64,000 nucleotides of DNA from Serendipita indica DSM 11827 (lineage: Eukaryota; Basidiomycota; Agaricomycetes; Sebacinales; Serendipitaceae), in NCBI GenBank assembly GCA_910890315.1, contig CAJVGD010000045.1:106346-170345 (forward strand). Reading direction: 5' to 3'. Both the position numbers and the translations under genes were made by a program. The notes beneath the pieces are model-generated. The model was given only the letters and a program-made list of their open reading frames with translations. It ran no database searches and was not told the DNA's origin. This document shows positions 28,205 to 53,839 of this stretch, piece after piece (the stretch's first letter is position 1; each line of letters begins with the position of its first letter).

Positions 28205-30137
28205 ATGGCAACTCAGAACTCAGCAAAATCAAAGGGCAAAAGCAAAAGTCGTTGGAGATTCTTGCGTTACGCAATAAGGTCATCAAGCAAGAAGCACCAA
28301 ATGCAAAACACGGATAGCATCGCACCGGATGTAGTGATAAACGTAGTCGAGGCATCAGATATACTCGTGCCCCTCAAGGAAGCCCGCAGAACAACAAAGT
28401 CAATCATCGACCTCAAGCAGGTAAGTGGACGAGCCTAACACAATAATCTCGTCTGATGAACCTGATAGGCACTCAATGATAATCAGGGAGACTAAAGCGA
28501 TCTGGTACAGCGTTTGGAAAAACACATGTCCGCTATTGAGCACCAAATCGACACTCTGGAGAAATATCCTCCAAAGGGTCGGGCCGTCGATGAAGCGAGA
28601 TCGACCGAGGGTAAGCGAGTATTGTCTACGAGAAATCCACTCAAGTTTTCCAAAGTCGAAGCGTCTTTTATATATCAGCTCCCAATGGTGGCATTCCTCC
28701 GATGCTCGGTCCACGGCACCTGCCTTCAAGGAACACGTCAAGCCGTTCTCCAGACCGTTCATGATTGGGGCTGAGGACGAATCCTCGGGAAAACCAATAT
28801 TCTGGCTTGTGATATAGCTGGGTCTGGGAAGATCACTATCACAATGTCGGCAGCGGCGTCGTGGCGCGCGGAGGGAGCACTAGGAGGCCAATTTTTCTTC
28901 TCAATGGCGAACATTGATACGCCAAACACCGAAAAATTCTGCTCAACTATGGCTAGAGACCTCGTGCAACAAATCCCAGACGTCGCGATGCATGTAGCGA
29001 ATGCGGTGAAGCGGAACCCTTCCGCAATCTCAGCTGACGGCTCAAGAATTGCCTCTAGCTCTCAAGCTTGTACAATTCGATTATGGGATGCGGAGGCTGG
29101 TCAGGCGCTGGGGAGGCCTCTTCTAGGGCATATCAAATGCGTCCAAGGTGTTGCATTCTCACCCTACGGTTCGCAATTTGTCTCTTGCTCGGGTGGCCAC
29201 ACAGTTCGACTATGGGATGCAGAGACCGGGCAAACGTTGGGGGCTCCACTCCGAGGCCATAAACATTGGATCCATACTGTCTGATTCTCGCCAGATGACT
29301 CGCGAATCATCTCTGGGTCTCAGGATTTTAGAATTCGATTATGGGATGCGACCACTGGCCAGTCGGTGGGAGAGCCACGACGAGGGTATCGAGCCGCCGT
29401 CCAAGCAGTCGCATTCTCACCAGATAGCTCAAGGGTTGTCTCTGGCTCTCAAGGTCGTACAATCCGACTACGGGATGCGGAGATTGGCCAGACGCTGGGA
29501 GTTCCGCTTCGAGAGCATACAAATTGGGTCCTGGCTGTCGCATTCTCACCAGACGGGTCACAAATTGTCTCTGGATCGACAGATCGTACTATCCAAGTGT
29601 GGAATGTGGAACTTTCCGAGTCATTGGGGCCTGTCCAGCCATTGGGACCTGTCTATTCGTTTAGGGTGGCACTTCCCGGACAAGGCGACTTAGAGTTAGC
29701 CGTTCATTTCATAATCCCAAACCCTCGAGGCTCACCTCGGACTCTGAAGATTGCATAATTGAGGAAGAAATTGATGGTAATAGCCCATGGAACACTTTTC
29801 CTGGTTAGTTTGATTCACATTTGTCTTTGTTATTACTTCAAGCTGAACGAAATTACTAGGATCGGACATGACTGGTATGATTTTGTGTCAGAATTTTTCG
29901 ATATCTCCAGAAATGATTATGCCGCCCGAGCTTCGAGGATGCTCGCTTTGAAGGGATGGCTGGGTACAATTGTCTGGCAAGCTTCTATTCTGGGTACCAC
30001 CAGACAATCGGATCTCACTAATTTCCCCATCACTACTCACTCCTCCGACATCCAGCGCTCCCCACCCGACTAAAATAGATTTCACGCGCTTTCAATACGG
30101 CCCTTCTTGGGCAAAAGTCAGAGACAATATCCATTGA
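28205..30137 (+). pseudogene. NACHT-WD40 NLR-like pseudogene 1 (internally deleted)
   Basis: This is a decayed member of the cluster. Exon 1 (28205-28420, MATQNSAKSK...) and its donor are intact and match the other copies. Exon 2 hits TAA at 28493, where the minus-strand homologue encodes Trp. The Walker A region survives as CDIAGSGKI, with the Ser/Thr after the P-loop Lys lost and two small frame shifts around it. After AVKRNPS the sequence jumps directly to WD40 repeats, so the Walker B half of NACHT and the following helical region are missing. A TGA at 29282 interrupts the propeller (HTV-stop-FSPDDS). About four or five WD repeats remain. The conserved C-terminal cap (LFWVPPDNR ... SWAKVRDNIH) is recognisable to 30137, out of frame. 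Confidence 0.8.
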
Positions 30138-30547: not shown

Positions 30548-33500
30548 ATGCCGGCCCAGAATTCAAACGTGCCTAAGAAGCAGCAGAGAATTGTGAACAA
30601 CTCGCTATCCCCATCTCTCGCCCAACGCCTAACAAGCAAAAAGAATCAAGCCTACGACGCGGCCAGGTTTGGGCTCGACGTCACGGCCAACATAGCTGAG
30701 GGATCGGATCTACTTGCTCCTCTGAAGGCTGTATGCCGAGCGACAAAATCAATCCTCGAGACCATACAGGTGAGCATGGGAGACTGTCACAAATTCGGGC
30801 TTATGAGTGCGACAGGCAATCGAGGGCAATCAAGAAGAATGGACCAACCTTACTCGACGCTTGAAGGGATATCTGTCTGCGCTTGAAGAGCGGATCACCT
30901 TGTTTGAGAAATACTCTCCAGAGGACAGGATCGTCGACGAGGCGTTCAGCCAGCCGCTTATCCACTATACAGAGTGCGTGAATACCCACTCTGTTTCAAG
31001 ATGTTGAATTATCTAGGTTCCTCGAAACTTTGCATGATTCTGTCGTCGACCTCCAGAAGAAACGCAGCCGCAGTAAACTCGAGTTCTTTACAGGAGGAGT
31101 CGATGCCAGAGACATTCTCGAACTCAATAGAGATGTCGAGGACCAGCATAGGCAGTTCATGGTGCGAATGTCCCTAGTCCCATTCTCTAGTTCACCGTAA
31201 ACACAGGAGGCATTGAGCGTTTTCCTCGCATTACGCACTCAAGTCATCGAGCGGAACACCAAAGTGACCAAGGAAGATGCCCAAGCTACTAAATTCGACA
31301 TGGAGGCTGTAAAGGCTGATGTGAAAACGATTCGGGCAGATGGTGAGTGGGGGCTCTGTTTGGGACACTTGCTTAGGATTCCAAGTCGACGCCTCTGTCA
31401 TACTTCAGTTACCAACGGTGGCGTTCGTTGCATCTTCAGTTCACAACACCTGTCTGAAAGGAACGCGTGAGGCGGTTATTCAGACGATCCGGTGCTGGGC
31501 CGATGATGATGGTCTGGAGATGCCGATATTTTGGTTGTGTGACATAGCTGGATCTGGAAAGTCCACAGTCGCCATGTCCGCAGTGGAATTATGGCGTAAT
31601 GAGGGATTGCTAGGCGGCCGATTCTTCTTCTCCATAGCAAGTAGCGACGCATCGACTACGGACAAGTTCTGCGCTACTATGGCAAGAGACCTCGTTCATT
31701 ACATCCCCGACCTTGCATCGTGCATTGCTGGAGCCGTGAAACGGAATCCGTCTTTGATGCGAAGCCCCCTCGACGAGCAATTCCAGATACTCATCACCTA
31801 CCCTATTCGCCATCGACAACGGCGCGTAGTTCTTGTCATCGACGCTCTTGACGAGTGTCAATCTGAATCACAGCGAAGAGAGCTTGTCGATACACTTGTT
31901 GCGGCTGTTAGGGAATGCAAGAACCTCAGAATATTTATTACAAGTCGTCCGGACTCTGTCGTTGAAGCAGCTTTGGGCTCGCTTGCGATCAAAACCAAGT
32001 TGGAGGACCGCCTGCACGATCTCAATTATCATGATAACGTCAATGATATCGCCATATATATACATAACTCACTAGAAAAGGTGCTGTCGGAGGACAAGAG
32101 GGGAAGGCTGGTCGAGAGAGCCAATGGATTGTTCATTTGGGCAAGCACCGCGTGTCGAATGCTTAGTAACAAGACTAGACTGAGGTCCGCGGCGGAAATA
32201 TACAATCGTCTCATTTCCATGGACCAGAGCGGTGTCATCGACGATCTGTACGGTCTCATCCTCGAGCGCATAGACCCCGAAGACTACGTGGTCATGTATG
32301 AGATGCTCGCTTTACTGCTCGTTGCCTTTGAGCCACTCACTACCGATGATCTTGATGACATCCTCAAACATGCCGGAGTAGATGGGAGCGCCAGGGGGCT
32401 AATGGACGCTCTTGGCAGTGTACTGGGCGAAGACAAGACAACAAATCTGATCCAGTTTCGGCATCCCACCTTTGTGGAGTACCTCAAACGCCGCACAATT
32501 GTTCGACCCATAGATAGCCACAACAGAGTATATATCAATACCACCAACGCGCATGGGAAAGCCGCATCATGGTGTCTCAAATGCCTGAATTCACCGGACG
32601 GTCTCAAATTCAACATATGTCAGCTTGAAACGTCTTTCTACTTGAATAGGGAATTACCAGACCTTGACGCCAGGGTATCAAAGTTTATCCCGAGGAGACT
32701 TCAATATGCTGGCTCCCATTGGTTGTTTCACGTAGCGGAAACTGACCATCAATGGCGATCCACGTTTACAAAGGAGCTTCAACTTGTTACCCGATCTCCA
32801 TACGTACTATACTGGATGGAGATTATGAGTTTCACAGGGGGAGTGTCACGAGCAATAGCTGGGCTTCGAGCTGTAGAAGGCAGCACCGGAGTGAGTGTTT
32901 TATCCCACCAAGGTGTCACCACTGAAGCAGTAGAAAGATTGAAGAACACACTAGACGCAACATGGAGGAGGCTCGACGGTTTATGGTAGCATTTTCGGTG
33001 CCGATCCAGGATAGCGCCTCACACATCTATATTTCTGCACTTCCATTCGCTCCCATCAAATCAAGACTGCATAAAGAAGGCGTGAATCAGCGCCATAACA
33101 TGCTTAATGTGGTTCGGGGGGTCGAGAAGATGTATCCCGGACTTCCAGCTAGTCTTCGAGGTCACCAGGGTTGGGTCAATGCCGTCGCGTTCTCTCCGGA
33201 TGGCTCACGAATTGTCTCTGGCTCACATGACAAGACGATTCGAGTGTGGGATGTGGATACTGGACAGCCGTTGGGAGAGCCATTGCATGGCCACGAAGAT
33301 TTTGTCTGGAGCGTTGCATTCTCTCCAGACGGCTCACGAATTGTCTCTGGGTCGGCTGATCGGACGATTCGAATATGGGATGCAGTCACTGGGCAGTCGT
33401 TAGGAGAACCGCTTCAAGGGCACGAAAATGGGGTTAGTGCTGTCGCGTTCTCGCCAGACGGCTCTCGGGTTCTCTCAGGTTCGGCTGACAAGACAATTCG

Positions 33501-36335
33501 ATTATGGGATTCACTCTCTGGGACCCCCATAGGAGAGCCGCTCAAAGGTCATAAAAATGGAGTCTTGGCCGTCGCATTCTCGCCAGAAGGTTCGCGAATC
33601 GTCTCTAGCTCGTACGACAAAACGATTCAAATATGGGACGCGATCAATGGTCGGCCGCTGGGAGAGCCATTCCGCAGTTACGAATGTTGGGCCCTGGCCG
33701 TCGCATTCTCACCGGACGGCTCACGAATCGTCGCTGGGTCGACAGATGATATGGTTCGAGTATGGGACTTACGCACTGAGCAGTCATTGGAAGGGCTCTC
33801 TAGAGCTCAAGGCGACTCGGTTCGAACCGTCGCGGCTTCACCAGAGGTCTCGCGAATCGCCAGTGGCTCGCAAGAAAGTACGATTCAAGTTCAGGGTGTA
33901 CATTTTAGAAGTGTGTTAGACTCCCCATTCGAAGGTCACGAGGGCTTTGTCTTAGGTGTCGCGTTCTCTCTGGGGGGCTCTCAAATTGTCTCTAGCTCGG
34001 CTGACGGGACGATCCGAACATGGGATATTGTAACTGGGCAGTCGATACGAGAGCCGGCCAGAGGTCAAGAGCATGGGATTAGCACCGTCGCATTTTCACC
34101 TGACGGCTCACGAATTGCATTTGGCTCGTCCGACCGCACGATTCAATTGTGGGATGCAGCTAGAAAAAATTCTTTGGGAGGCTCTCTCAGAGGTCATGAT
34201 AGCGGAGTCCTGGCGGTCGCCTTCTCCCCAAACGGCAAACAGATAGTCTCTGGCTCGTATGACCAGACGATTCGCCTTTGGGATGTAGCCACAGGAAAGC
34301 CATTAGGAGAGCCCCTCAAAGGTCATGAGGATTGGGTCATGTCCATCGCATTCTCTCCTGATGGCTCACGAATCGTCTCCGGCTCGGCTGATGGGACTAT
34401 TCGACTATGGAATATAGCAACTGGACAGCCACTAGGAGATCCACTCCGAGGTCATGAATATTATTGGGTCTTGGCCGTCGCTTATTCGCCAGGTGGCTCT
34501 CGAATCGTCTCTGGCTCAGCTGACGGGACTATTCGAGTTTGGAATGCGATCACTAGACAGCCTTTGGGAGGGGCACTTCGAGGCCACGAATACGGGGTGT
34601 TGGCCGTCGCATTCTCGCCAGAAGGCTCGCGAATCGTCTCCTGCTCACATGACAAAACAATTCGGCTGTGGGCTGTGGAGTCTGGGCAACCGCTCGCAGA
34701 TCCAATCCAAGGACATAATGACTCTGTAAAAGCCGTCGCATTCTCGCCGGATGGTTCAAGAATTGCCTCTGGCTCGTATGACCAAACGGTTCGATTATGG
34801 GATGCTGTACCCGGGCAGAAATTGGGAGAGCTGCTTCGGTCTCACACAGACGCAGTTTCAGCTGTCGCGTTTTCACCAAATGGTTCGCAAATAGCCTCAG
34901 GTTCTCATGACAAAACGGTTCGGATTTGGGACGCATACGCAAGGAAGACGTTTGGGAAGCCACTCCAAGGTCACCAAGGCTTTGTTTTGAGCCTCTCATT
35001 CTCGCCAGACGGCTCAAAAATTGTCTCTGGATCGAGTGATGAGACGATTCGGTTATGGGACATTGTCACTGGACAGCCATTGGGAGAGCCAACCCAAGGT
35101 CATGAAGACTGGATCAACGCCGTCGCATTCTCACCAGACGGCTCACGAGTTGTCTCTGCCTCTCAAGACAAGACAATTCGAGTTTGGGATGCAAACACCG
35201 GACAGCCGTTAGGAGGGCCACTGGAAGGTCACGAAGGCCCCGTATGGAGCGTCGCATTTTCTCCGTGGGGTTCGCGGATTGCATCTGGCTCGCAGGACCA
35301 GACAGTTCGCCTGTGGGATGTAGTCGCTGGGCAGCCAGTTGGAGAACCACTCAGAGGTCACGAAGCTGGAGTAGGCACAGTCGCCTTTTCGCCAGACGGC
35401 ACCCTGATTATCTCCGCCTCGGTCGACGAGACGGTTAGATGGTGGAACGCAGTCACCGGAGCGCCGTTAGGAACGCCACTTCGAGGTCAAGATTACGGAG
35501 TTTTGACCATCGCAGTAGCGCCAGATGGCTCACTGATCTATTCTAGGTCTGCATATGGGAAGATTCATATCTGGGATGCAAAGACTGGACAACCGTTGGG
35601 AGTGCCACTCTCTGGGTATGAGAGCGGTGTCTCGTGTATCGCATTCTCACCAGACCACTCGAAGATTGCGATAGTTGCTCCTTCAGCTAGCAAGAAGATC
35701 CATATATGGGATATAGTCACCGGAAATCTGTTGGGAGAGCCACTCCTGGGTCACCAGGAGTCTGTCAAAGTGGTCGCATTCTCACCAGATGGTTCTCGAC
35801 TAGTCTCCGGCTCTGATGATAAAACTATTAGACTGTGGAATACATACACAGGTCGATCATTGGGAGAGCCGATCCGAGGTCACCAAGGCGAGGTCAGAGC
35901 CATCGCATTCTCGCCAGATGGATCACGAATCCTCTCTGGCTCGACCGACATGACCGTTCGTGTATGGGACGCAGGAATAAGTGAGTGTAGCTTGTAATAA
36001 GTTTATGTGGGAAGTGACTCTTCCCCCTCCTAGATGATGCGAACAACATCAATCCGCATGACAGGAATTCTATACATTCTGATCTCAGGGAAGGTTCTCC
36101 TCTCGGAATCATTATACCCGGATTCGAACAGTGCTCACTCACGCTCGATGGATGGGTACAGTCAGGGGCTAAGCGTCTATTCTGGGTGCCTCCAAACAAT
36201 AGGCATGGGATAAAAAATCCCCGCCTTCTTTTGACAATCCCGACCTCGAGTCCTTTCCGTTCAACCAAACTCGACTTGACTCATTTTCAATGTGGCCTTT
36301 CTTGGACGAATGTTCAAAACGACATCCGCCGGTGA
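30548..36335 (+). CDS. NACHT-WD40 STAND protein (HET-E/NLR-like), intact
   Basis: Seven exons: 30548-30769, 30816-30973, 31017-31161, 31207-31342, 31386-32890, 32938-35980, 36034-36335. They give 1836 residues. Residues 1-220 are a helical, charged N-terminal domain, perhaps HeLo/MLKL-like; that is a guess. NACHT follows, with Walker A CDIAGSGKSTVAMS near 272-285 and Walker B RVVLVIDALDE near 367-377. TSRPDSV and RLVERANGLFIWAS come next. A winged-helix/superhelical linker follows (FEPLTTDDLDDIL, IQFRHPTFVEYL). About 22 WD40 repeats (SPDGSRIVSGS..TIRLWD) occupy about 800-1735, enough for three propellers. A separate last exon encodes the cap LTLDGWVQSGAKRLFWVPPN. Such proteins act in non-self recognition and heterokaryon incompatibility in ascomycetes; the role here is inferred. 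Confidence 0.9.
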
Positions 36336-36550: not shown

Positions 36551-39500
36551 ATGTCAGCCCAAAGGCCGATCAAGGCCAAGAAACAGCACACAGTTGGGAA
36601 TGACACAACAATCTCGTCTTTGACGCAACGCCCAACCAGTAAAAGAGATCAACTATACGATGCGGCTACCGTGGGCCTCAACGTGGTGGCAAATATAGCC
36701 GAGGGATCAGACATACTAGCCCCTCCAAAGGCAGCTTGTCGAGCGACGAAATCAATTCTCGACGTGGCGCAGGTGAGCAAGATAAATTGTCACGATTTGA
36801 CCTGATCAACGCGAGAGGCGGTTGAGAACAATCAAGAAGAATGGGCTGAACTCATTCAACGTCTGAAGAAATGCATGTCCGCACTTGAGGAACGGGTCGC
36901 CTTCTTTGAAACATATCCCTCAGAGGACAGAGCTGTCGACTAGGCATTCAGCCAGCCGCTCGTCCATTATATCGAGTATGTGAGCCTCTCTATTTGTGTC
37001 AAGAGGTTGAAACATGCAGGTTTCTTGAGACTAGGCATGATACAGTCGTCGACCTCCAGACGAAACGCAGCCGGAGCAAACTCGGATTCCTTAAAGCGTT
37101 TGGAAAAGTGAAAATTGATGCAGAAGAGCTTCTCAAGTTCAATCGAGATATCGAAGATCAACATAGGCAATTCATGGTGCGAGTTTCGTCCGTTTCGTTC
37201 ACAAGCTCATCATGGACACAGGAGGGGTTGAATTGGTTTGTCGCATTGCGGGTTCAAGCCATCGAGAGGAACACTAGAGTTACAAAGGAAGATGTCCAAG
37301 TAACGAAAGCCAACGTGGAGGCCACCAAGGCAAACGTCGAGATAATTTTGACAGACGGTAAGCGGAAACCTTGTCTGAAGCGCCCACTGAATACTTCAAG
37401 TCGACACTTCTGCAATACTTCAACTACCTACGGTAGCATTCGTTGCATCCTCAGTCCATAACGCATGCCTGAAAGGAACGCGTGATGCAGTTCTGCGGAC
37501 AATCTGGTGCTGGGCCGACGACGATAACACGGAGAAACCAATATTTTGGCTCTGTGATATAGCCGGATCTGGCAAGTCCACAGTCACGATGTCCGTGGTG
37601 GAATCATGGCGAAAGGAGGGAGTGCTAGGCGGCCGGTTCTTCTTCTCGATAGCGAGCAACGAAGGATCGACCACGGACAAGTTCTGCTCCACAATAGCAA
37701 GAGATCTCGTTCACTACATCCCTGGGCTCACACCCCACGTTGCCAAAGCCGTGAAGCAGAACCCTGCTTTCATGCGGAGCTCTATTGACGAGCAGTTCAA
37801 GACTCTCGTCACTAATCCTCTTCATTATTGGCAAGGGCGCGTAATTCTTATCATCGACGCTCTTGATGATTGTAAATCTGGATCACAGCGAAGGGAACTA
37901 GTCGACGTCCTGGCTGGAGCCGTTCAAGAAAGCAACAATCTGAAGATATTCATGACAAGCCGGCCGGACTCTGTCATCGAAACGGCATTGGGTTCGCTTG
38001 CGATCAAAACCAAGTTAGAGGACCGCCTACATGATGTCAACCCTCGCGACAACGTTGATGACATCGCGCTCTACATTCACAGATCGCTAGATGGAGTGCT
38101 TTCGGAAGACAAGAGGCAAAGGCTTGTCCAAAAATCCAACGGCTTGTTCATTTGGGCAAGCACAGCATGTCGAATGCTCGATAGCAACACCAGATTACGG
38201 CCTCCTGAGAGCATATACAACCGTATCATCTCCATAGACCAGGGTGGTGTCATAGACCATTTGTACACCCTCGTCCTCGAGCGCACAGACCCCGAAGACT
38301 ACGCGGTTATGCACGAGATGCTCGCAATACCGCTGGCCGCTTTCGAACCGCTTACCGTTGGCCATTTTGACGACATAGTCAATCATAATAGGGTAGACGG
38401 GAGTGCCAAGGCGCTAGTAGATGCTCTTAGCAGCGTGCTGAGCGAGGATAAAGCGACGAATGCAATCCAATTTCGTCATCCAACCTTCGTTGAGTACCTT
38501 CGACGCTGCTTTCATACCTCGGCCATCCAGAAGCGCAATAATCTCTATCTCGACGTCAGCAAGGCACATGGTCAAACCGTATCATGGTGTCTCAAATTCT
38601 TATATCTGGTCTCAAGTTCAATATCTGTCAAATCGAGTCATCCTTCTACCTAAACAGGGATATCCCAGACCTTGATGCAAGAGTATCCAAGTTCATTCCG
38701 ACAAGACTTCGATATCCCAGCTCTCATGGGCTCTCCATGTGGGGAAAAGACTCCGACTGGCGGTCTATACTCAAGAACGAGCTTCGGCGCATGGTTGAAT
38801 TTCCATACGTGCTGTGCTGGATGGAGATCCTGCGCTTCACCGGGGGATTGCCTCGAGCAATAGCGGGTCTTCGAGCCGTGACAGCCCACATAGGAGTGAG
38901 TGGTTTATCCCAGCGATATTCAAGCGATTAGGCGGTAGACAACTTGAAAAAGAAACCAGATGCAACATGATCGAAATACAACGGTTTATGATGACATTCT
39001 CAACACCGTGTTGTGACAGCGCCCCACACATCTACATTTCCGCGCTTCCGTTCACCCCAACAAGATCGAAATTACATAATGAGGTTGTAAAAAGACGCAT
39101 CAATACCCTCGCTGTGACAAAGGGACTCGATGAAATGTATCCCGGGCTCCCTACTAGTCTTCGGGGTCATACCGACTGGGTCAATGCTGTCGCATTCGCG
39201 CCAGATGGCTCGCAGATCGCCTCATGTTCAGTAGATAAAACAATTGGACTGTGGGATGCATTCACTGGGCAGTCATTGGGGGAGCCGCTCCGAGGTCATG
39301 TCCACTTGGTCGAGGCCATCGCGTTCTCGCCAGACGGCTCACAAATTACCTCCGTTTCGCGCGATACGACGGTTCGACTCTGGGATGTAAACACCGGATA
39401 TCCATTAGGAGAACCACTCCGATATCATAATGATGGAGTCAGCGCTGTCGCCTTCTCGCCAGACGGTTCACGAATCGTCACCGGTTCGGAGGATGCGACG

Positions 39501-41269
39501 ATCAGACTGTGGGATTTAGAAGGCGATCGGCCCGTGATGGAGCCACTTCGAGGCCACGAAGATGGAGTGACCGCTGTCGCGTTCTCACCCAATGGTTCGC
39601 AAATTGCTTCTGGCTCGTACGACAAAACAATTAGACTATGGGATGGAGCTACTGGTCTTTCGTTGGGAGAGGCAATCCGCTGTCATGACAATTGGGTCAA
39701 GACAATTAGCTTCTCACCAGACGGTTCACAAATTGTCTCTGGCTCAGAGGACCGTACTATTCGACTATTGGATGCAGTTACTAGACAACCACTTGGGGAG
39801 CCATTTAGAGGTCACAAGGGTTCAGTCTCCTCGGTCGGGTTCTCTCCAGATGGCTCACAAATTGTCTCTGGCTCGACGGACAGCACAATACGACTGTGAG
39901 ATATAGCCAACAGAGAAACCCTGAGGGACCCCCTCAAAGGCAACGAAGGCTTAGTCCTCGGCGTGGCGTTTTCACCAGATGGCTCACACATCGCCTCTGG
40001 TTCAGCTGATAGGACCATTCGACTGTGGAGTGCAGTCACCGGATGCCCATTGGGAGAGATGCCTCGAGGTCACCAAAATTCGGTCTATGCCGTCGCGTTC
40101 TCGCCAGATGGTTCACGAATCGCCTCTGCATCCATCGATAAGACGATTCGAACATGGGATGCGGTCACTGGGCAGCCGTTAGGAGAGCCACTTCAAGGTC
40201 ACAAAGGTGGTATCTTAGCTGTGGAATTCTCCCCAGACGGCTTACAATTTGTCTCGGGTTCAACGGATAAAACAATTCAACTGTGGGATGCGGATAGTGG
40301 AAAACCGTTGGGAGAACCACTTCGAGGTCATACGGAGTCGATCAAGTTTGTCGGCTTCTCCACGGATGGCTCCCGAATCGTCTCTGGCTCGTTCGACACG
40401 ACAATTTGACTCTGGGATGCAGCCACTGGAAAACCATTAGGAGAGCCACTCCGAGGTCACGCGATGTCAATCGAGGCGGTAGCTCTCTTGTCAGATGGTT
40501 CCCGAATCGTATCTGGCTCGATGGATTGCACGATTCGACTATGGAATGCAGCGACAGGTCAGTCGTTGGGAGCGCCGCTGCGTGGTCACCAAGAGTCCGT
40601 GAGAGCCGTCGCATTCTCACCAGACGGCTTGAGAATTGCTTCTGGCTTGTCCGATAGGACTATTTGTATTTGGGATGTGGCTACCCGATCGCTGTTGGGA
40701 AAGCCATTTCGAGGCCACCAAGACCCGGTTTGTGGCATCGCTTTCTCGCCAGACGGTTCTCGCATTGTCTCTGGATCGTACGATGGGAAGATTCGACTAT
40801 GGGATATACCTACTGCACGGCAGTTGGAAGATCCATTTCTAGGTCACGAAAGCTGGGTCAACACTGTTGCATTTTCACCTGACGGTCTGCGAATTGTCGG
40901 CGGCTCCTCAGGCAACACGATTAGTCTCTGGAATGTAGAAGGTACTGAGTGCAGCCAGACTTTTCTTAATGGTGCAATGTACTGACAAATTCCGCTAGAT
41001 ACAAAAGCGCATAGATTGATTCACGAAATTCTCGTGCCTGGATACGATGGTGTTCGCTTTTGCGCGATGGCTGGGTGCTGTGCGACGACGATAAACATCT
41101 CTTCTGGGTACCACCGGACAATCGACATGGACTGTCATTTCCTCGCCTTCTTCTGACGTTACCGACATCAAGGAGTGTTTTCCGCGCAACCAAGCTTGAC
41201 TTTACCTATTTTCAAGGTGGTCTCTCATGGACAAACGTTTTAAAGACATCCGATGATGATTTAGTATGA
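36551..41269 (+). pseudogene. NACHT-WD40 NLR-like pseudogene 2
   Basis: The full-length architecture is visible: start MSAQRPIKAKK, helical N-terminal domain, NACHT (CDIAGSGKSTVTMS; VILIIDALDD), linker, 14 WD40 repeats and the cap exon (DGWVLCDDDKHLFWVPPDNR, ending at 41269). It cannot encode a full protein. TAG at 36941 replaces the Glu codon of the intact copy's VDEAFSQP. About 7 nt are missing near 38600 (CLKFL-frameshift-GLKFNICQ). The intron at about 38896 no longer joins in frame. TGA at 39898 replaces the Trp of a WD repeat (IRL-stop-D), and TGA at 40408 replaces Arg (CGA to TGA). The spread of lesions over several exons argues for real decay rather than one sequencing error. Confidence 0.85.
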
Positions 41270-41953: not shown

Positions 41954-44900
41954 TCATTGATTGACGCTGCCTCGGACTTTTGTCCATGAAGGACCACAGT
42001 GGAAATGAGCGAAGTCGAGTTTGGTCGGGTAGGGAGGGGTAGACGTTGGTAAGTTGAGGAGGAATGGAGACGTTAATGAGAGCCGATTGTCTGGTGGAAC
42101 CCAAAATAGAAGCTTCCCTGAGAGATGCACCCAACCGTCATCAGAGAGAGTAAATGTTCGGAGCTGGGAAAGCATAACTTTCAATAAAGCCAGGATATTT
42201 TGATGCGAGATAAGGCCATCCTGGATTGACTGGCTCAACTGACCATTATGGTTGGATAACTCGGCTACGGGAATTTGTAAGCTTCCAGCATCACGGGGGG
42301 AAAAGGAATGAAGTGAAACGAACCAAATGCGGTGTTCCATAGTGTAATTGTGCTGTGAGCTGGAACCGACGTGATTTCCAAGCCGTCTGGTGAGAATGCA
42401 ACGGCGCCTCCCCAGTCTGTGTGGCCTCGGAGTGGGTCTCCCAACGACTGGCCCGTCTCCGCATTCCATAGTCGAATCGTATGATCGCGCGAGCCAGAGA
42501 CGATTCGCGAGCCGTCTGGTGAGAATGCGACGGCGCTGACCGAGTTTGTGTGGCCTCGGAGTGGGTCTCCCAACGACTGGCCCGTCTCCGCATTCCATAG
42601 TCGAATCGTGTTATCCCACGAGCCAGAGACGATTCGCGAGCCGTCTGGTGAGAATGCGACGGCGGTGACCGAGTTTGTGTGGCCTCGGAGTGGGTCTCCC
42701 AACGACTGGCCCGTCTCCGCATTCCATAGTCGAATCGTGTTATCCCACGAGCCAGAGACGATTCGCGAGCCGTCTGGTGAGAATGCGACGGCGCTGACCG
42801 AGTTTGTGTGGCCTCGGAGTGGGTCTCCCAACGACTGGCCCGTCTCCGCATTCCATAGTCGAATCGTATGATCGTGCGAGCCAGAGACGATTCGCGAGCC
42901 GTCTGGTGAGAATGCGACGGCGGTGACCCAGTTTGTGTGGCCTCGGAGTGGGTCTCCCAACGACTGGCCCGTCTCCGCATTCCATAGTCGAATCGTATGA
43001 TCGTCCGAGCCAGAGACGATTCGCGAGCCGTCTGGTGAGAATGCGACGGCGCTGACCGAGTTTGTGTGGCCTCGGAGTGGGTCTCCCAACGACTGGCCCG
43101 TCTCCGCATTCCATAGTCGAATCGTGCTATCCCACGAGCCAGAGACGATTCGCGAGCCGTCTGGTGAGAATGCGACGGCGCTGACCAGTTTGTGGCCTCG
43201 AGGTGGGTCTCCCAACGACTGGCCCGTCTCCGCATTCCATAGTCGAATCGTGTTATCATTGTCCGAGCTAGAGACGATTCGCGAGCCGTCAGGTGAGAAT
43301 CCGACGGCGGTGACCAAGTTTGTGTGGCCGCGGAGTGGGCCTCCCAACGACTGGCCCGTCTCCGCATCCCATAGCCGAACGGTATGATCGCCGGAGCCAG
43401 AGACGATTCGCGAGCCGTCTGGTGAGAATGCGACGGCGGTGACCGAGTTTGTGTGGCCTCGGAGTGTGTCTCCGAACGACTGGCCCGTCTCCGCATTCCA
43501 TAGTCGAATAGTATGATCGCGCGAGCCAGAGAGGATTCGCGAGCTGTCAGGTGAGAATGCGACGGCGCTGACCCAGTGTGTGTGGCCCCGCAGTGGATCT
43601 CCCAACGACTGGCCCGTCTCCGCATTCCATAGTCGAATCGTCTTATCACCCGACCCAGAGACGATTCTCAAGCCGTCTGGTGAGAATGAGACGGTGCTGA
43701 CCCAGTCTGTATGGCCTCGGAGTAGACCTCTCAACGACTGGCCCGTCTCCGCATTCCATAGTCGAATCGACTTATCATTCGAGCCAGAGACGATTCGCGA
43801 GCCGTCTGGTGAGAATGCGACGGCGCTGACCCAGTTTGTGTGGCCTCGGAGTGGGTCTCCCAACGACTGGCCCGTCTCCGCATCCCATAGTCGAATCGTG
43901 TTATCATTCGAGCCAGAGACGATTCGCGAGCCGTCTGGTGAGAATGAGACGGCGGTGACCGAGTTTGTGTGGCCTCGGAGTGGGTCTCCCAACGACTGGC
44001 CCGTCTCCGCATTCCATAGTCGAATCGTCTTATCATCCGAGCTAGAGACGATTCTCAAGCCATCTGGTGAGAATGCGACGGCGCTGACCCAGTTTGTGTG
44101 GCCTCGAAGCGGTTCTCCCAACGACTGGCCAGTCTCCGCATCCCATAGTCGAATCGTATTATCATACGACCCAGAGACGATTCGCGAGCCGTCTGGTGAA
44201 AATGCAATCGTCCTGACTACCTCTGTATGTCCCCGAAGCGCTTCTGGAAGTCCCCGGTATGTCTTTTCCAGCCCTTTAGTCACTTTGAGAGTGTTACTAT
44301 ACATTGATAACCCCTCCATATGCATATGTGATTCTGTAGGTGTGAACGGAATCGCCGAGATGTAGATATGTGGAGCACTCTCTTGAATAGGTACTGAAAA
44401 TGCCATCATAAACCGCATCACTTCACTTATGCGACCATTAGTCTCTTTTTCAACCTTTCCCTTGTTAAAAAATGCGAATATACCGAGGCGAGCCACTCAC
44501 ACTATTGCGCATCACAGCTCGGAGCCCATCTATAGCTCGCGGCAGTCCTCCAATCAAGCTCAGAACCTCCATCCAATGTAGTACATATGGGACTCGAATA
44601 ATATGTTCAACTTCATTTTTGAGCTTGCTTCTCCATTTGCTATCCGTTTCGGCCATATGAAACGGCCAGTGTAAACTCGCATATCGAACGTTCATTCTGA
44701 TGAACTTTGATATTCTTGCCTCTAGATCCGGCATCTCTCTGTTTCGATAGAAGGACGACTCGATTTCACATATATTGAACTTGAGGCCTTCCTTCGGTGC
44801 TTGAAGTTTATTGAAACCCCACGATGCAATTTGACCGTGCGCATTGGCGATGTCGATATACATTCCACTCGGCTCTTTGAGGTCTGGGCCTAGACAGCGC

Positions 44901-46773
44901 CGTCGCAGATATTCCACAAGAGTAGGGTGACGAAACTGAATGACTTTTGTTGCTTCATCTTCGATAAGAACACTTCCAAGTTCTCGAATCAACACCCTGA
45001 AGTGTCCCCGTAGTCTACTATGCTTGAGAATGTTGTCTAGATCCTCGGAGGTAAGTGGTTCGAATGCAGCGAGCAGTAGTGCAAGCATGCTCCACATGAT
45101 GGTATGGAATTTGGGATCTATCCGCTCGAAGATGAGCTTGTATACGTCGTCAATGTCTCCACTTTGGTCCAATAAGACCAATGAGTCGTATATATTTTCA
45201 GGCGTGTCCCATGTTGTTTCGTTGTTGATCATTCGACATGCGGTGCTCGCCCAGATGAACAATCCCCTCGCCTTCTCAATCAGCCGCCGTCTCTTGTCCT
45301 CGGGTAGAACAGTGTAGAGTGATTGATGGACATACGTCGCGATGTCATCTACGTTGTCACGATGTTTGACATCATGCAACCGGTCTTCCAATTTACATTT
45401 GATCGAGAGTGGTTGAAGAACCGATTCGATGACGGCGTCTGGCCGACTCGTGATGAATACCTTGAGGTTCTTGCTTTGTCGAACGGCTTTAGCAAGCGTG
45501 TCGACAAGTTCCTTTCGCTGAGGTCCAGATTTGCATTCGTCTATGGCGTCGATGACAAGAACTACGCGTCCGTCTCGATGACGGAGTGGATCGATGATGA
45601 GTGTGTGGAATTGTTCCTCCAACGAACTCCGCATGACCGATGGGTTCCGTTTGACGGCATCTGCGACGTGGGGTGCGAGTTCGGGAATGTGTTGAGCAAG
45701 GTCTCTTGCCATGGTCGAGCAGAACTTTTCTATTGTCGATGTATCGCTATTAGCTATGGAGAAAAAGAATTGGCCTCCTAGTGTTCCCTCGACATGCCAG
45801 GACGCGGCTGCCGACATTGCAACTGTGGACTTGCCAGAGCCGGCTATGTCGCAGAGCCAGAATATTGGTTTGTCTGAGGTATCATCCTCAGCCCAATTCT
45901 GGATTGTCTGAAGGACAGCCTGACGCGTTCCTTGTAGACAGGTTCTGTGGACCGAGGATGGGGCGGATGCCACCATCGGGAGTTGGAATATAAAGGATGC
46001 GTCGACTTGGAGCATTTGAGTGAACGTCGTGCAAGCAAGTCCTAGCTTACCGTCTGAGGAGACTGCTTCTACCTTGTGTTCGATAGCATGAACTCGGTAG
46101 CCCGTGAAGAGGGCCAACGCTTCCTATTTAGGGTGTGAAATTAGGATGATATAGCCTGGTGCTCTCACCATGAACTGCCTATGCCGGTCCTCGATATCGC
46201 GATTGAATTTACGAATGAGCCCTGCGTCGACCTTTACTTTTCCGATGGCCGTAAAAGCACCGTGGCTGGTGCGGGGTCGCGTATGCCTATCATTGACGAT
46301 AGCGCAATGAATATCCTCGAGAACTCTGCGTCAATCAGTCGACTGCGCCAGAGTAGATGTGCCAATTACTTACTCGACATAACGAACGAGTGGCTGGCTA
46401 AAAGCCTCGTCGACAACCCTATCCTGTGGAGGATACTTCTCGAGCGAGTCGATTTGGTTCTCAATAGCCCACATGTATTCCTCCAGACGGCGTACAAGGT
46501 CACTCCAGTCTCCTTGATTATCGTCGATGGCCTATGATAACCGTCAGGCGACATTATGCGGGTTTGTGTGCTTACCTGCTTGACGTCGATGATTGACTTT
46601 GTTGCTCTGCAGGCTGCTTTGAGAGGAGCGAGGATATCCGAGGCCTCTGCTACGTTTGCGACTACATCCAGTGCGATACTGGCCGTATTTTGGACTTGAT
46701 CCTTCTTGCCTGGCGATCGTCCTGCAGCATTCGAGGGCCCCTGATTCAGTTTAGTCGACTTTTGAGATGACAT
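41954..46773 (-). CDS. NACHT-WD40 STAND protein (HET-E/NLR-like) with near-identical WD repeats, intact
   Basis: Seven minus-strand exons: 46773-46576, 46531-46374, 46325-46169, 46123-46051, 46005-44501, 44454-42324, 42264-41954. They give 1510 residues. Exon 5 is 1505 bp, exactly as in the intact plus-strand copy. The N-terminal helical domain starts MSSQKSTKLNQGPS; an upstream in-frame ATG at 46833 is possible. NACHT shows Walker A CDIAGSGKSTVAMS and Walker B RVVLVIDAIDE, then TSRPDAV and KARGLFIWAS. The linker includes FEPLTSEDLDNIL. Fifteen WD40 repeats of 43 residues follow, mostly GHTN(W/S)V(S/T)AVAFSPDG. The last exon encodes the cap DGWVHLSGKLLFWVPPDNR..HCGPSWTKVRGS. All splice junctions join in frame and there is no internal stop. 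Confidence 0.92.
42345..44236 (-). repeat. 15 WD40-coding tandem repeats, 129-bp unit
   Basis: The block AGTGGGTCTCCCAACGACTG (plus-strand reading) recurs at 42431, 42560 and 42689 and onward at 129-bp steps across the propeller exon. Most units are almost identical at the DNA level. Differences cluster at the codons after Gly-His (TNW, TNS, TDW, THW, TNL, TEV) and around SGS-x-D-x-T (x = N, R, W, D, H, G, then N, H, K or S). One repeat is a residue short (GHKLV) next to one with an extra residue (SSSDNDNTI). Confidence 0.9.
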
Positions 46774-46954
46774 TGCGGAGGTGGAATCCAAGTCAAGGAC
46801 GGCGTCTACCACTCTCTGCCGCATATTCTCCACGAGCCAGTCGAATCTAACTATGAGAGTAACAATACATCCAGTCTTAATGCACGATTCCGACAGTCCA
46901 GGGAGCAGTCAAAGGTCTCGAACCTTGGCGAGTTGTCTAATTGCCCCTGCGTGT

Positions 46955-47276
46955 GTAGACTGCACGATTCGCAATTGGAACGCGGCAATTTGAAGAGCCA
47001 CTTCAAGGGCACACAAGTTCGGCCGGCGCCATTGCATTCTCGCCAGATGGCTTGGGAATCATTTCGAGCTCCATAGACTCCACAGTTAGACTGTGGGGCG
47101 CCGCATTCGGTTCGTTCCATTTCACTCCTCTCTTACCCTACTTCTGGAAGCTCACCAATACCGCCGGACAATCGCCTCTCATTGACTTCTCCACTGCTGC
47201 TCACCATACCGACATCGACTTTACCCATTTCCACTGCGGTCCCTCTTGGACAAAAGTCAGAGAAAGTATCCATTGA
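46955..47276 (+). pseudogene. 3' stump of a fifth NACHT-WD40 gene
   Basis: Plus-strand sequence reads a damaged WD blade (CTIRNWNAAI-stop), then in another frame AIAFSPDGLGIISSS..STVRLWGAAF. The family's C-terminal cap follows (DFTHFHCGPSWTKVRESIH) to a stop at 47276. Only the last one or two repeats and the cap remain, with no NACHT upstream. It lies just behind the promoter of the intact minus-strand gene, so it is the remnant of a former divergent partner. Confidence 0.75.
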
Positions 47277-47835
47277 ACCAAGGATTTGACAGGTATAAAA
47301 TCAATATCACTATATATATCCCTTGCTTACGAGCTTGAAAATGAGCATGATGTTTGTGTACACTTGGCTTGCTGGCGTTGCTGGAACGAGCGCTTTCGAC
47401 GATGCGATCGACAATATAGATGGGGCAAAGCTTAGTTCTCGCCAATAAAGTCGATAATAGCTCGTAAAAGACAGGAAACGACTGGGTTTACAAGGCGAGA
47501 GGTCACCAGCAAGTCTGTCAAGAGGTGTTGCTTGCAGGATCATTTGATTCCAATGTTCTGGGTCCTCGCCTTGCTTCTTGTTTAGGACGACCGGCTTTAC
47601 TATTTTCGCGCCTATATTCGCTTCCTCATCGAGTTCATCTCACTAGTCTCTCGATTGACAATTGAGGTAATCGACCTGAAGAGTCTCTTCTTGAGACGTA
47701 GCACGCCAAAGTATCCAACTCGACTTTTAGTATTCAGACTCGTCTTTGCGCATACACTAGGCGACTCGTATAGATTAAGACTTGCAGGTGATGTCGCACT
47801 CACGATCCAAAGAGAGACAAATGCTGACCAACTCT
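47277..47835. other. Intergenic region, nothing recognised
   Basis: This gap lies between the NLR stump and the 3' end of the mS35 gene. I see no convincing exon, RNA gene or repeat. Positions 47290-47330 are AT-rich, with runs such as ATATATAT. Confidence 0.4.
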
Positions 47836-48800
47836 TCACCGAGGACTGGGAAGCCATTCTTTTGGAAAGTCTGCAAGCGTAACTCTTCTCCTTTCCGCTT
47901 TATAACTCCCTCCACCTCGTCCGTGTGATCGTAATCTCGAATCGTGATGCCTTGTTGGAAGAGGGATATCTGTAAAAGAGTCTGGTGATGAGGACGTAGC
48001 CCTGGCCTAGACAAGACGTTAGGACTTTGATTGATGGTATTCGAACAACTTACATTCGCCTCGGAAACCAATTTACGGAGTGTATCCATACACCACTTCA
48101 AGTTCATTGGACCTTCGGGGAACAATTCGCAGGATATCTTGACATATCCATGCTCTGCTTCAATATCCTTCGAAGCAGAGGTGGCCTTGGACGCGTACAC
48201 AGGCTCGTGTGTAGCTTGCGGAAGTCCACTGTCCTTGGGTGGCTCCAAAAACCAACGAGGACCTGCGATCACTTTGATATTGTGAATCGCGTCCGCATTT
48301 CTAAGTTGCAGTTTCGATATTGGTACGACGATTACTCGTTTCGGCGTGACTGGATGGTGAAGTTCCCCAGCATAAGTCACTGAGCGGACGAGAACGGATG
48401 TCTTGTTGGGATTTGGCGGTATAAATGGCCTCCTGTACTCTTATTTAGAGTTAGCAAAGCGCCAACTGTGCAAAGTCGAGTTTGACAAACTTTCGAATCG
48501 TGGAACGTCGCGCTCCAATAGCCTCATACGATCGAAAAACTCTTTTTGCTGATGAAAGATCTCCCAACCCCAGCTGCTCATGTGCCGTTGGTCCTCTTCT
48601 TCGACGTTTTCGATATCCCATAGACGGTCTTCCTCTTCCTGAATGTTGGCGCGTAATAGTCGCGCATCTCTAGGTACATCTGTAGATGTACTGGCTTGGT
48701 CTGCATGTGCTGAGGAGCTGGAAGAGAGGAGTCTGCGGGTGATGGACGGTGTTATTCTGTGTTGAGTGAGCGTTGCTACACTCCGAGTAGTTGACCACAT
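47836..48800 (-). CDS. Mitochondrial small-subunit ribosomal protein mS35
   Basis: Three minus-strand exons (48800-48491, 48439-48054, 48006-47836) give 288 residues. The N-terminus (MWSTTRSVATLTQHRITPS..RRLLSSSSS) is a typical mitochondrial import sequence. The Rsm24/MRPS35 core is clear: IHNIKVIAGPRWF, HGYVKISCELFPEGPMNLKW and TLRKLVSEAN. The C-terminus LADFPKEWLPSPR fits the family's FPKEW ending. The first intron has an unusual donor context (GAAA|GTTTGT) but a textbook branch site (GCTAAC) before its acceptor. Cells use it in the 28S-type mitoribosomal subunit. Confidence 0.88.
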
Positions 48801-49756
48801 GTTGAATAGTGAGATATAAATGATAATAGGCCTTGACTTGTAAAGCCGTGTAAACTGGTTCTGGCCAACCTTGACCTCTCCCACATTTGACCCGAAAATG
48901 GCGAGTCTCACGCGTCTCGCAGTGGAAATCTGGCAACATCTAACGACATGGTTGGAATTATAGGATCCTAATAATCTCTTTGCCCAGTTTGCAGGGTGAG
49001 TTTTCTCCAAGCCACCTGGATCATATCTGCGCCTGGATGTCTTGTTTTTCATTTGATGGGTGTATCTGCCATTTAGCAGACCACACCCATCCATCCAACG
49101 TCGCGTCTGCATCCAGCCTGTCTCTGGCAGTTAGTGGCAATGACGCGTCGTGTTTGAAACCAGAGCCAGCCGTTGGAAAGACGCTGACCTATTCCGTTCT
49201 CGCACACCAATCTCGTTGTTTCTCCATCTCCTGGATCCACCCACAAACCGCATTTCTCTCTGTGGAAATGGCCACCGCTTCCCTTGTGGCTAACGCGCAT
49301 CCCGGCAATCCCGCGCCTGCAACGATTCTACACTCCTCCACGACAATCTCGTCAAACTCCAAATCCTCAAAACCACCTCAAACACGTAATCTTGTTCCCG
49401 TGACGCTTGTTGACGCCGACTTGCTGCATGCAACCGACACCGATTCGGCTACACCACCATCTCGCCCACGAATACAAACATGGATCAACTTGCGGCTGAA
49501 ATTGCTTCAAACACGGGTCAACGGACGCCTTTCTCTCTGGTACCTCCGCCTCCCTCAATGCATGCGTCGGCGGCTCGACAAACGGCGTGCGGCCAAATGG
49601 GCGGATCACGACATGTCCGTATGGAATGATACTACTGAATCATCCAATGATTATTGGGCCAACTTGGGAACGCCTCACCAACTCTCCGACACGACGGCGC
49701 CTGCGCCTACAAACGCTGACGGACCTCCTGCTTCGCTACCGATTCGATCGCATAGA
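48801..49756. other. Intergenic or 5' leader of UFD1; possible N-terminal extension
   Basis: A plus-strand frame in phase with UFD1 exon 1 stays open across about 48980-49756 and holds ATGs, for example at 49268. The encoded sequence (Ser/Thr/Pro then Arg-rich) has no family resemblance, and UFD1 proteins normally start near GSFMGGG. I treat it as promoter and leader. A minor upstream exon cannot be excluded. Confidence 0.4.
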
Positions 49757-51981: not shown

Positions 51982-52582
51982 TCTCAGTGCTGACAGGTGT
52001 CGGGAGGAAAGTCATGGTGCAGGCCAAGGAGTGAAGCTAGACGCCTGACTGCACCCGGCCAAACTTTACTAGAGCCGATTTGAATATTTCCAAAGCTTGT
52101 GCATCGATGTCCATTATGACGATTCCTCAAGATGGGTGGCGTCGACATCGCTAGCTGGCTCATCGCATGCCATAACTATAAGGCCGATATTGGTCTTGCA
52201 ATGGCTCCAAACCGATGTAAAGTCATTATTAGAGCATATTATTGCTCTCTATTTTATTTCTATTTTATTAAATGACAAATTTTTGGCTCTGATTGCAAGC
52301 TACAAGGATAGCTACATTAATTTTTGATTGTGCTAGACCTCGTTAAAGCTTGCCTATAGCTTGATATATATTACGCTTACCGGGGGGATTTATGAATGCC
52401 TTGCGTACTATACGCGCTCCGTGTCTCTTTCGAAACAACGGAAAGTTGGCGCGCTATCGCTGGTGCTCTCTTTGACCTATCAAAGCGCCCATGAGTGCCA
52501 AAACATCATCATGCTCCACATCGTCGTTGAGAGAAAGTGAACTAGTAAGGTTCCGTAGTGCATTCTTGCCCAGACTCGCGAA
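51982..52582. other. Intergenic region between the micro-bZIP genes, itself duplicated
   Basis: No gene. The word TTCCAAAGCTTGTGCATCGATG near 52088 (cited here as TTCCAAAGCTTGT) and following TCCTCAAGATG..CTAGCTG recur about 1 kb further right in front of copy 2. The stretch at about 52240-52330 is AT-rich. Confidence 0.5.
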
Positions 52583-52976
52583 TCACCTCAGAATGATATC
52601 CAAAGGGGAGCCCACCGGGGGAACAGTACGGACATGCATGAGGCTTCTTAACATCTCTAATTCCTTACTTTTTGCCTCTAGCGCTCTACTGATCTCCGAA
52701 ACGGCCTGCCTGAGGTAGGCATCTGGAAAGTAGGCCATCGATCAATATAGCAAGTCGCATCAACAGTCCATATATTCAACTTACTTTCATTTTGAAGGTT
52801 CTCTTCTTGCTCTTTCCTACGGATCCGGTACTGTCTCTGCGATTCGGCATTCATTTTTCTCTGCAGTGTCACCTTATCCTCTCGTATTTCCACTGCGAAT
52901 AAACCGAATCAACATCATCAGAAAACAGGAGCAGGCATTAAAAACCTGAATCTAGTCCAAAGAACAGATCTGACAT
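52583..52976 (-). CDS. Micro-bZIP protein, copy 2 (92 residues)
   Basis: Three minus-strand exons (52976-52946, 52892-52785, 52722-52583) give 92 residues. Exons 1 and 3 are exactly as long as in copy 1 (31 and 140 bp), and the second intron is 62 bp in both. The basic region is LQRKMNAESQRQYRIRRKEQ. The zipper-like part is NLQNENAYLRQAVSEISRAL, then EAKSKELEMLRSLM, so the coiled coil is better kept than in copy 1. The C-terminus is PPVGSPLDIILR. Both copies keep open frames despite sequence drift, which suggests coding constraint. Confidence 0.72.
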
Positions 52977-53341
52977 TCGAGTGCAGACAGCCGCCGACAG
53001 GAATTCGTGGTAAAGGGCAAGATGCGTCTAGGTGGAGACACCCAGCGTCCAGTTCACAGCAATATTTATATATTTGAAGTGAGTATTTCCAAAGCTTGTA
53101 CAATTATGTTCGTTGTAGCGAATTCTCAAGATGCTCGGTGTCGGCATGCCTAGCTGATCGTATACCATAATCATAAGAATGAATAGAAGTCTCGAAACGG
53201 CTCAGTCCTGGGGTAACATATCATCCGAGAATAGGTACGCTTGTTTGCTATATATCATTTGCATCTCGCTCTGATTTCAAGATACAAGGATCGGCGTATT
53301 ATCTACCATCGCCCGACACTAATTGAGAATTATATCAACCT

Positions 53342-53839
53342 TTATCGAGACACCTCTCTGGGAACCTCTCGCTCGTTTTGTGGATTGTAGGTCCACCGCA
53401 GACGGCAACTCATACCCCGCGGATGAAAAGTCACGACTGCCGTCTTCCAGAGGCCCGTCTCTTCTATCTCTTGAAGAACCGAGGTCCCTGTCATGAAATA
53501 TAACTCCAGTTCCTTCAAAGCAGGGCACCCTGCAATGGTCTCACCCATGTCATTGATTGGTATAAAGCGAGTGTTGACCAGATCCGAGAAGTACTCCTTC
53601 TTTATCGTACTGTATGCTACTAGGACCGAGATTAGAACTGGCCATAATGTAGGGCTGGCAAAGACGAATCTGTTCCAAGCTTTGCAAATGAGAGCCAGAC
53701 CTGCGGTAGCGTGGATCTTCAAGGCAAGTTTGGGAGATGGTTCAAGTCTTGAAGCCTCATCATTGGCGACCATCTCAAAAATCAATAAGAGCAGCTCGGG
53801 AGTGCATCGCTGGATTGGACAGTACTCTTCGGGTAGCAT
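53342..53839 (-). CDS. Short F-box-like protein, probably truncated
   Basis: An uninterrupted minus-strand frame of 165 codons starts MLPEEYCPIQRCTPELLLLI, followed by FEMVAND, an F-box-like helix. ALICKAWNRFVFASPTLWPV follows, the usual second part of basidiomycete F-box proteins. Instead of the long leucine-rich or variable domain, the frame passes quickly to CPALKELELYFMTG and a Trp/Arg-rich end. So the middle of the family's C-terminal domain appears deleted. The frame is open upstream to 53956, so the start is uncertain. It may be a pseudogene that happens to stay open. Confidence 0.5.
   Translation of the reverse strand: MLPEEYCPIQRCTPELLLLIFEMVANDEASRLEPSPKLALKIHATAGLALICKAWNRFVFASPTLWPVLISVLVAYSTIKKEYFSDLVNTRFIPINDMGETIAGCPALKELELYFMTGTSVLQEIEETGLWKTAVVTFHPRGMSCRLRWTYNPQNEREVPREVSR

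Follow-up and report, generated by a model that had tools for sequence, protein, structure and literature searches.

A predicted NLR gene in Serendipita indica, located on the minus strand of the stretch of DNA analysed here (64,000 nucleotides; hereafter the window), carries an array of WD40 repeats in which a nearly constant repeat frame is combined with strong variation at five codons. We consider it likely, at roughly three chances in four, that a diversification regime of the type described for the HNWD receptors of Podospora is active in this basidiomycete NLR, a regime whose ligand, exchange, selection and output we infer. The regime is supported because none of 11 repeat codes was kept between the window array and a second copy on contig C36, as against 11 of 13 in a collinear receptor with a diverged array.

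Gene model, repeat array and neighbouring genes

The gene spans positions 42268-46824, with its ATG at 46824 and six exons, and a single open frame of 1445 aa results when five introns of 40-48 nt each (46575-46532, 46373-46326, 46168-46124, 46050-46006 and 44500-44461) are spliced out; as far as the gene model goes, the gene is intact, as originally predicted. Its architecture is that of a predicted fungal NLR (STAND) receptor, with an N-terminal module (about 212 aa, exons within 46051-46824), a NACHT NTPase exon (44501-46005), a linker (44239-44460, delimited from ORF 42265-44496 and the intron end) and 15 WD40 units, all on the minus strand. The NACHT domain was recognized from Pfam matches on ORF 44465-46117, to PF05729 (E=2.8e-11; 44 bits, above the cut-off of 26.7) and to PF24883 (E=6.3e-28). 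Pfam and PDB gave no convincing match for the N-terminal module: there were zero Pfam matches up to E=10, and the PDB sequence match, at E=0.15, was at chance level, so that no name is given to it.

The 15 units, each of 43 aa, lie in ORF 42265-44496 and run from 44238 down to 42304; TRF reported the array at 42381-44205 with a period of 129, 14.1 copies, a 91% match and a score of 2888. It had been described as fifteen near-identical units at exact 129-bp steps. Fourteen units are indeed similar (r1-r14, 42433-44238), with a mean DNA identity of 0.90, which rises to 0.915 for r2-r14 and 0.967 for r10-r14, while the terminal unit r15 (42304-42432) is diverged, sharing only 0.54-0.64 of its DNA positions with the others. 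Mean protein identity was 0.84 for r1-r14 and 0.94 for r10-r14 (minimum 0.907, over 215 aa). Units r10-r14 (42433-43077) differ from one another only at the five hypervariable codons, the remaining 114 nt being identical. Of the 14 steps from one unit start to the next, 12 measure exactly 129 bp; the exceptions are r8-r9 (132) and r9-r10 (126), with one codon more in r8 and one fewer in r9. Other frames of the array are also open at length within 42265-44496 (452 aa on the minus strand and 261 aa on the plus strand) because 129 is divisible by three, and nothing indicates that these extra frames are genes.

When 22 arrays picked by their resemblance to the window array were ranked by mean unit identity, the window array came 14th, 13 being more homogeneous, in an ungapped scan that slightly penalised r8 and r9. 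Six of the homogeneous arrays (L009, L010, L012, L016, L023 and L024) have spacings of 128, 130 and 127, which are not divisible by three, so that frames break within them; either true inactivation or assembly error may be responsible. A sister NLR on the plus strand (30548-35997, with its NACHT domain at 31340-32989 and its WD40 ORF at 32962-35997) is far more diverged, as had been noted, with a mean unit identity of 0.64-0.65 for DNA and 0.56 for protein.

Further genes and gene remnants lie in the window. At 36900-41000 on the plus strand, two stops interrupt the WD40 frame of an NLR relative and the NACHT part lies in a different frame, and this copy is probably a pseudogene. A remnant at 28284-29574, also on the plus strand, consists of an N-terminal piece (76% to that of the minus-strand NLR) and about four WD40 units, and no NACHT domain was seen between them. 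Finally, a STE3-like pheromone receptor gene at 62338-64000 on the minus strand reaches the contig end; its copy on contig C36 scores 254 bits, the stretch is 99% identical in both copies, and several other STE3-like genes occur elsewhere in the genome.

Hypervariable sites within a frozen frame

Variation among r1-r14 is centred on a few sites, as the original prediction held. With r8 and r9 aligned with one gap each, 22 of the 43 residue positions are invariant, sites 25, 27, 7, 9 and 6 rank first to fifth in entropy, and sites 8 and 26 are constant. The mean entropy of sites 7, 9, 25 and 27 was equalled by 1 in 200,000 random four-site sets. The loops that hold these sites vary in WD40 proteins generally. 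The same four sites exceeded random four-site sets in all 22 arrays of a wider scan (largest p 0.0034), for which 26 arrays were picked by similarity to the query, 4 having too few usable units, 2 of the 22 overlapping others and several being homologous copies. In the diverged sister, sites 6, 7, 9, 25 and 27 hold entropy ranks 2-6. The suggestion that the two paralogues are in different modes is thus upheld for homogenisation, which differs, but not for the variable sites, which are the same.

AlphaFold2 models of three window sequences (mean pLDDT 74, pTM 0.50) had a low-confidence break at residues 429-436, at the r8/r9 boundary, and suggest two propellers, the second with seven blades, in an arrangement that is unreliable. 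The best PDB match was 2YMU by sequence (E=1.1e-147) and also by fold, followed by Apaf-1, whose blades are diverged from one another. Mapping of the variable sites on the model by DSSP, a step that had been proposed for the propeller, placed sites 6 and 7 before strand a, site 9 at the start of strand a and sites 25-27 in the b-c turn. According to the model of Paoletti (2007), both loops lie on the same side of the propeller. The blades of 2YMU, a cyanobacterial WRAP protein, are unlike those of the window array in that only 10 point mutations are reported over 14 blades (PMC9218822).

The contrast between frame and exposed codons extends beyond the window. Among 131 units of the nine gene copies nearest the window gene, 46 share an identical 114-nt frame, and these 46 units, which come from seven copies, some being homologous contigs of one locus, carry, at the five codons, 36 distinct 15-nt haplotypes that amount to 32 combinations of residues. 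Codons 25 and 27 are linked (the observed value was attained in 0 of 2000 shuffles), and codons 7 and 9 are unlinked (p=0.39). The frequent codon states at 7, 9 and 27 differ by C/G exchanges (TCG/TGG, ACC/AGC/AGG and AAC/AAG), a pattern that may simply reflect favoured residues.

For the 74 units with at most two changes from the frame, the ratio of nonsynonymous diversity at the hypervariable codons to synonymous diversity in the frame was 16.6 (12.3-24.3), with a piN/piS of 0.20 for the frame itself. Within the five codons, synonymous diversity (0.34) was as high as nonsynonymous diversity (0.33). For the window array alone, the ratio of hypervariable piN to frame piS was 2.1 (1.4-4.4), against 1.0 in the diverged sister. 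Per-codon minimum-change tests gave no significant nonsynonymous excess at the ten most variable sites per set; both these tests and the dN/dS runs used ungapped units, so that r8 and r9 were out of register in the former. An excess of dN over dS per codon is not established, because these codons are high in synonymous diversity as well. The proposal of concerted evolution plus diversifying selection is supported in part, as an HNWD-like regime; per-site dN/dS does not by itself prove positive selection. GC-biased conversion was rejected as an account of array homogeneity, since unit identity was related neither to GC3 (rho -0.08, p=0.73) nor to the CpG ratio (p=0.49) over 20 arrays. Overall GC is higher in homogeneous arrays and GC1 correlates with unit identity (rho 0.86), which is perhaps a repeat-family effect.

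Copies of the locus and exchange between loci

The stretch from 42807 to 64000 is repeated, inverted, on contig C36, which matches the window in order at 42807-48886 (97.4% including the array), 47900-49100 (99%), 52000-53500 (98%) and 62400-63900 (99%). At 46060-48886 the two copies differ by 6 substitutions in 2816 aligned bases (0.2%), and among the loci compared C36 holds the closest relative of the 5′ part of the window gene. Divergence then climbs toward the array, from 0.4% at 45300-46059 and 1.6% at 44480-45299 to 2.9% in the linker and, in the two bins with which the array begins, to 7.0% and 9.1%, with 129 and 117 gap columns, respectively. The last 393 alignment columns differ by 1%; C36 terminates within the array after 11 units, and the alignment near its end is therefore uncertain. 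The five-residue code was retained in none of the 11 aligned unit pairs, and one code, NSSRH, is present in both arrays. Within this one assembly, repeat content thus differs between the two copies of this locus, and repeat number between homologous copies of a neighbouring receptor (see below), rather than showing the fixed number and order that would speak against the original prediction.

We regard C36 as probably the second haplotype of the locus. Plain gene duplication is less likely because the four stretches sampled, spread over about 21 kb of contig ends, all match in the same order, because a stretch beyond the overlap (16000-17500) has no near-identical second copy in the assembly, and because the strain, then named Piriformospora indica, is reported as a probable heterokaryon with two nuclei and 2.6 SNP/kb (PMC3192844). 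According to the same source, sexual reproduction of P. indica had not been detected. The genome examined here encodes a phosphate-transporter stretch that matches PDB chain 7SP5, the transporter of P. indica, at 237 of 237 residues.

Other copy pairs show the same difference between array types. The left of contig C43 and contig C55 carry three receptors in the same order. The receptor with a diverged array is collinear in both, with 14 detected units each and 98.9% identity over 6.6 kb, and it has 11 of 13 compared codes unchanged; of the receptor whose array is homogeneous, 10 units were detected on C55 as compared to 4 on C43, in matches of 98.6-98.7%. A third copy pair has 26 and 17 detected units, with gaps in the second that would fit about 19. 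A further copy on contig C54, at 95-99%, means that not every copy can represent one of two haplotypes of a single locus.

Several observations point to exchange between loci. Units r1 and r15 are closer to units at the same position at other loci than to their own array (for r15, identity with the last unit of L015 is 98%), which fits turnover of interior units. The gene's nearest relatives change from its 5′ to its 3′ part. L011 and L017, which stop before their own 3′ parts, match the second half of the NACHT exon at 98.7-98.9% identity, as against 89.3% for L015, while L015 matches the 3′ end of the gene at 98.8% and the DNA downstream of it at 98.1%. NACHT third positions differ from those of L015 at 13.8%, yet 6 of 15 L015 units carry the r10-r14 frame. 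L018 is the opposite case, with 3% different third positions and the frame in 0 of its 13 units, a finding that counts against the proposed regime. For this comparison, automatic extraction recovered NACHT frames that could be used from 4 of the 8 copies, and in L009 the affiliation switches within the NACHT domain. Given the identical frames in seven copies and the incongruent 5′ and 3′ relatives, we take units to have been exchanged between loci.

Exchange appears to extend to the N-terminal module. L010, L015 and L018 carry another module, 96.7-97.6% identical among the three, on NACHT segments that are 89-98% identical to that of the window gene, and by sequence comparison this is a recent effector-module swap. 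By eye, we take the module to resemble a SesB-type hydrolase; two pieces of the L010 module had no Pfam match above the cut-off.

These comparisons bear on the alternatives. The arrays could descend from old alleles that balancing selection has maintained while recombination evened out their flanks, with little fresh shuffling, and the smooth rise in divergence from 0.2% to 9% toward the array, as well as the high synonymous diversity and the 25/27 linkage of the five codons, would fit such a history. We nevertheless hold it to be unlikely, as homologous copies with 10 and 4 units and identical frames between loci require recent exchange. Still less probable is a young array amplified from one blade, with neither ongoing homogenisation nor selection on codes. 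Amplification of propellers from single blades is described as continuing and common in fungi (Pereira and Lupas, PMC9218822), and r10-r14 are neighbouring units with an identical frame. However, both end units are old and resemble the units in the same place at other loci, seven gene copies whose flanks have diverged carry the identical frame, changes are focused on five codons while 114 nt stay identical, and the continued exchange between copies speaks against it as well. Assembly error, in which unit order, number and frame breaks would stem from collapsed or misjoined repeats, seems very improbable: although contigs C36 and C9 both end within arrays, frame-breaking spacings are common in other arrays and arrays of this kind are reported to defeat short reads (PMC12222747), the window and C36 arrays have no frame breaks, and genuine base changes separate their codes. 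A dedicated mutagenic process targeting the exposed codons while the frame is kept identical is hardly credible. The 36 codon haplotypes in 46 frame-identical units and the lack of linkage between codons 7 and 9, which are separated by only a few nt, might suggest it, but a small set of codon states is found again at different loci and codons 25 and 27 are linked, both of which shuffling plus selection explains.

Known receptors and proposed working

The receptor class itself is already known (PMC4986451, PMC1805685, PMC2873952, PMC12222747 and PMC5587647). The window gene shares with Podospora HNWD a NACHT domain followed by near-identical WD40 units and exchange within and between loci (PMC1805685, PMC2873952). 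In HNWD, codons 7, 9, 25 and 27 are reported to be under positive selection and 8 and 26 to be conserved (PMC1805685); the same four, in the same numbering, hold entropy ranks 3, 4, 1 and 2 in the window array. Unlike HNWD, the window gene has an N-terminal module with no HET domain match and an additional variable site 6, and its host belongs to another phylum. HNWD receptors also set off cell death when unlike strains fuse. It also resembles the fungal NLRs with high internal repeat conservation of the survey by Dyrka (2014), which lists 274 NLRs for Piriformospora indica, very probably the same species, and describes NACHT-WD40 receptors and N-terminal modules swapped on similar NACHT domains, including a swapped-module pair in P. 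indica (PMC4986451). Unlike the present comparison, that survey works at the protein level, and its accessible text studies variable sites for ANK and TPR repeats and contains no comparison of WD40 arrays between haplotypes of P. indica. By its definition of conserved repeats (more than 85% identical over at least 100 aa), which we applied through unit identities, T-reks being the tool of the survey, r10-r14 are included and r1-r14 fall just below (0.84). Among the titles listed in searches of the openly licensed literature, none concerned a haplotype comparison of WD40 arrays in P. indica, which is weak evidence of absence.

In the regime that we favour, the exposed positions would contact a ligand, either a self or a non-self protein, and its binding would free the NACHT switch, leading to oligomerisation and firing of the N-terminal module, with cell death or defence as the outcome. 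The codes would be re-dealt by gene conversion and unequal exchange, acting inside family members as well as from one member to another, and selection would maintain the diversity of the exposed codons. The sequences themselves show first and last units kept by position and interior units turning over. A more speculative extension, which we regard as rather doubtful, is that in this heterokaryon, for which no sexual stage is known, recombination centred on the arrays might re-deal them during vegetative growth, so that each nucleus would have its own codes and several recognition repertoires would be pooled in one mycelium.

If correct, our reading would extend the HNWD-type regime to a root symbiont among the basidiomycetes that had the largest NLR count of the 2014 survey. 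The locus provides a natural comparison within one strain, in which two copies of one receptor agree at their 5′ ends and differ in their repeat codes, and the origin of recognition diversity in fungi would thereby be testable in a single laboratory strain.
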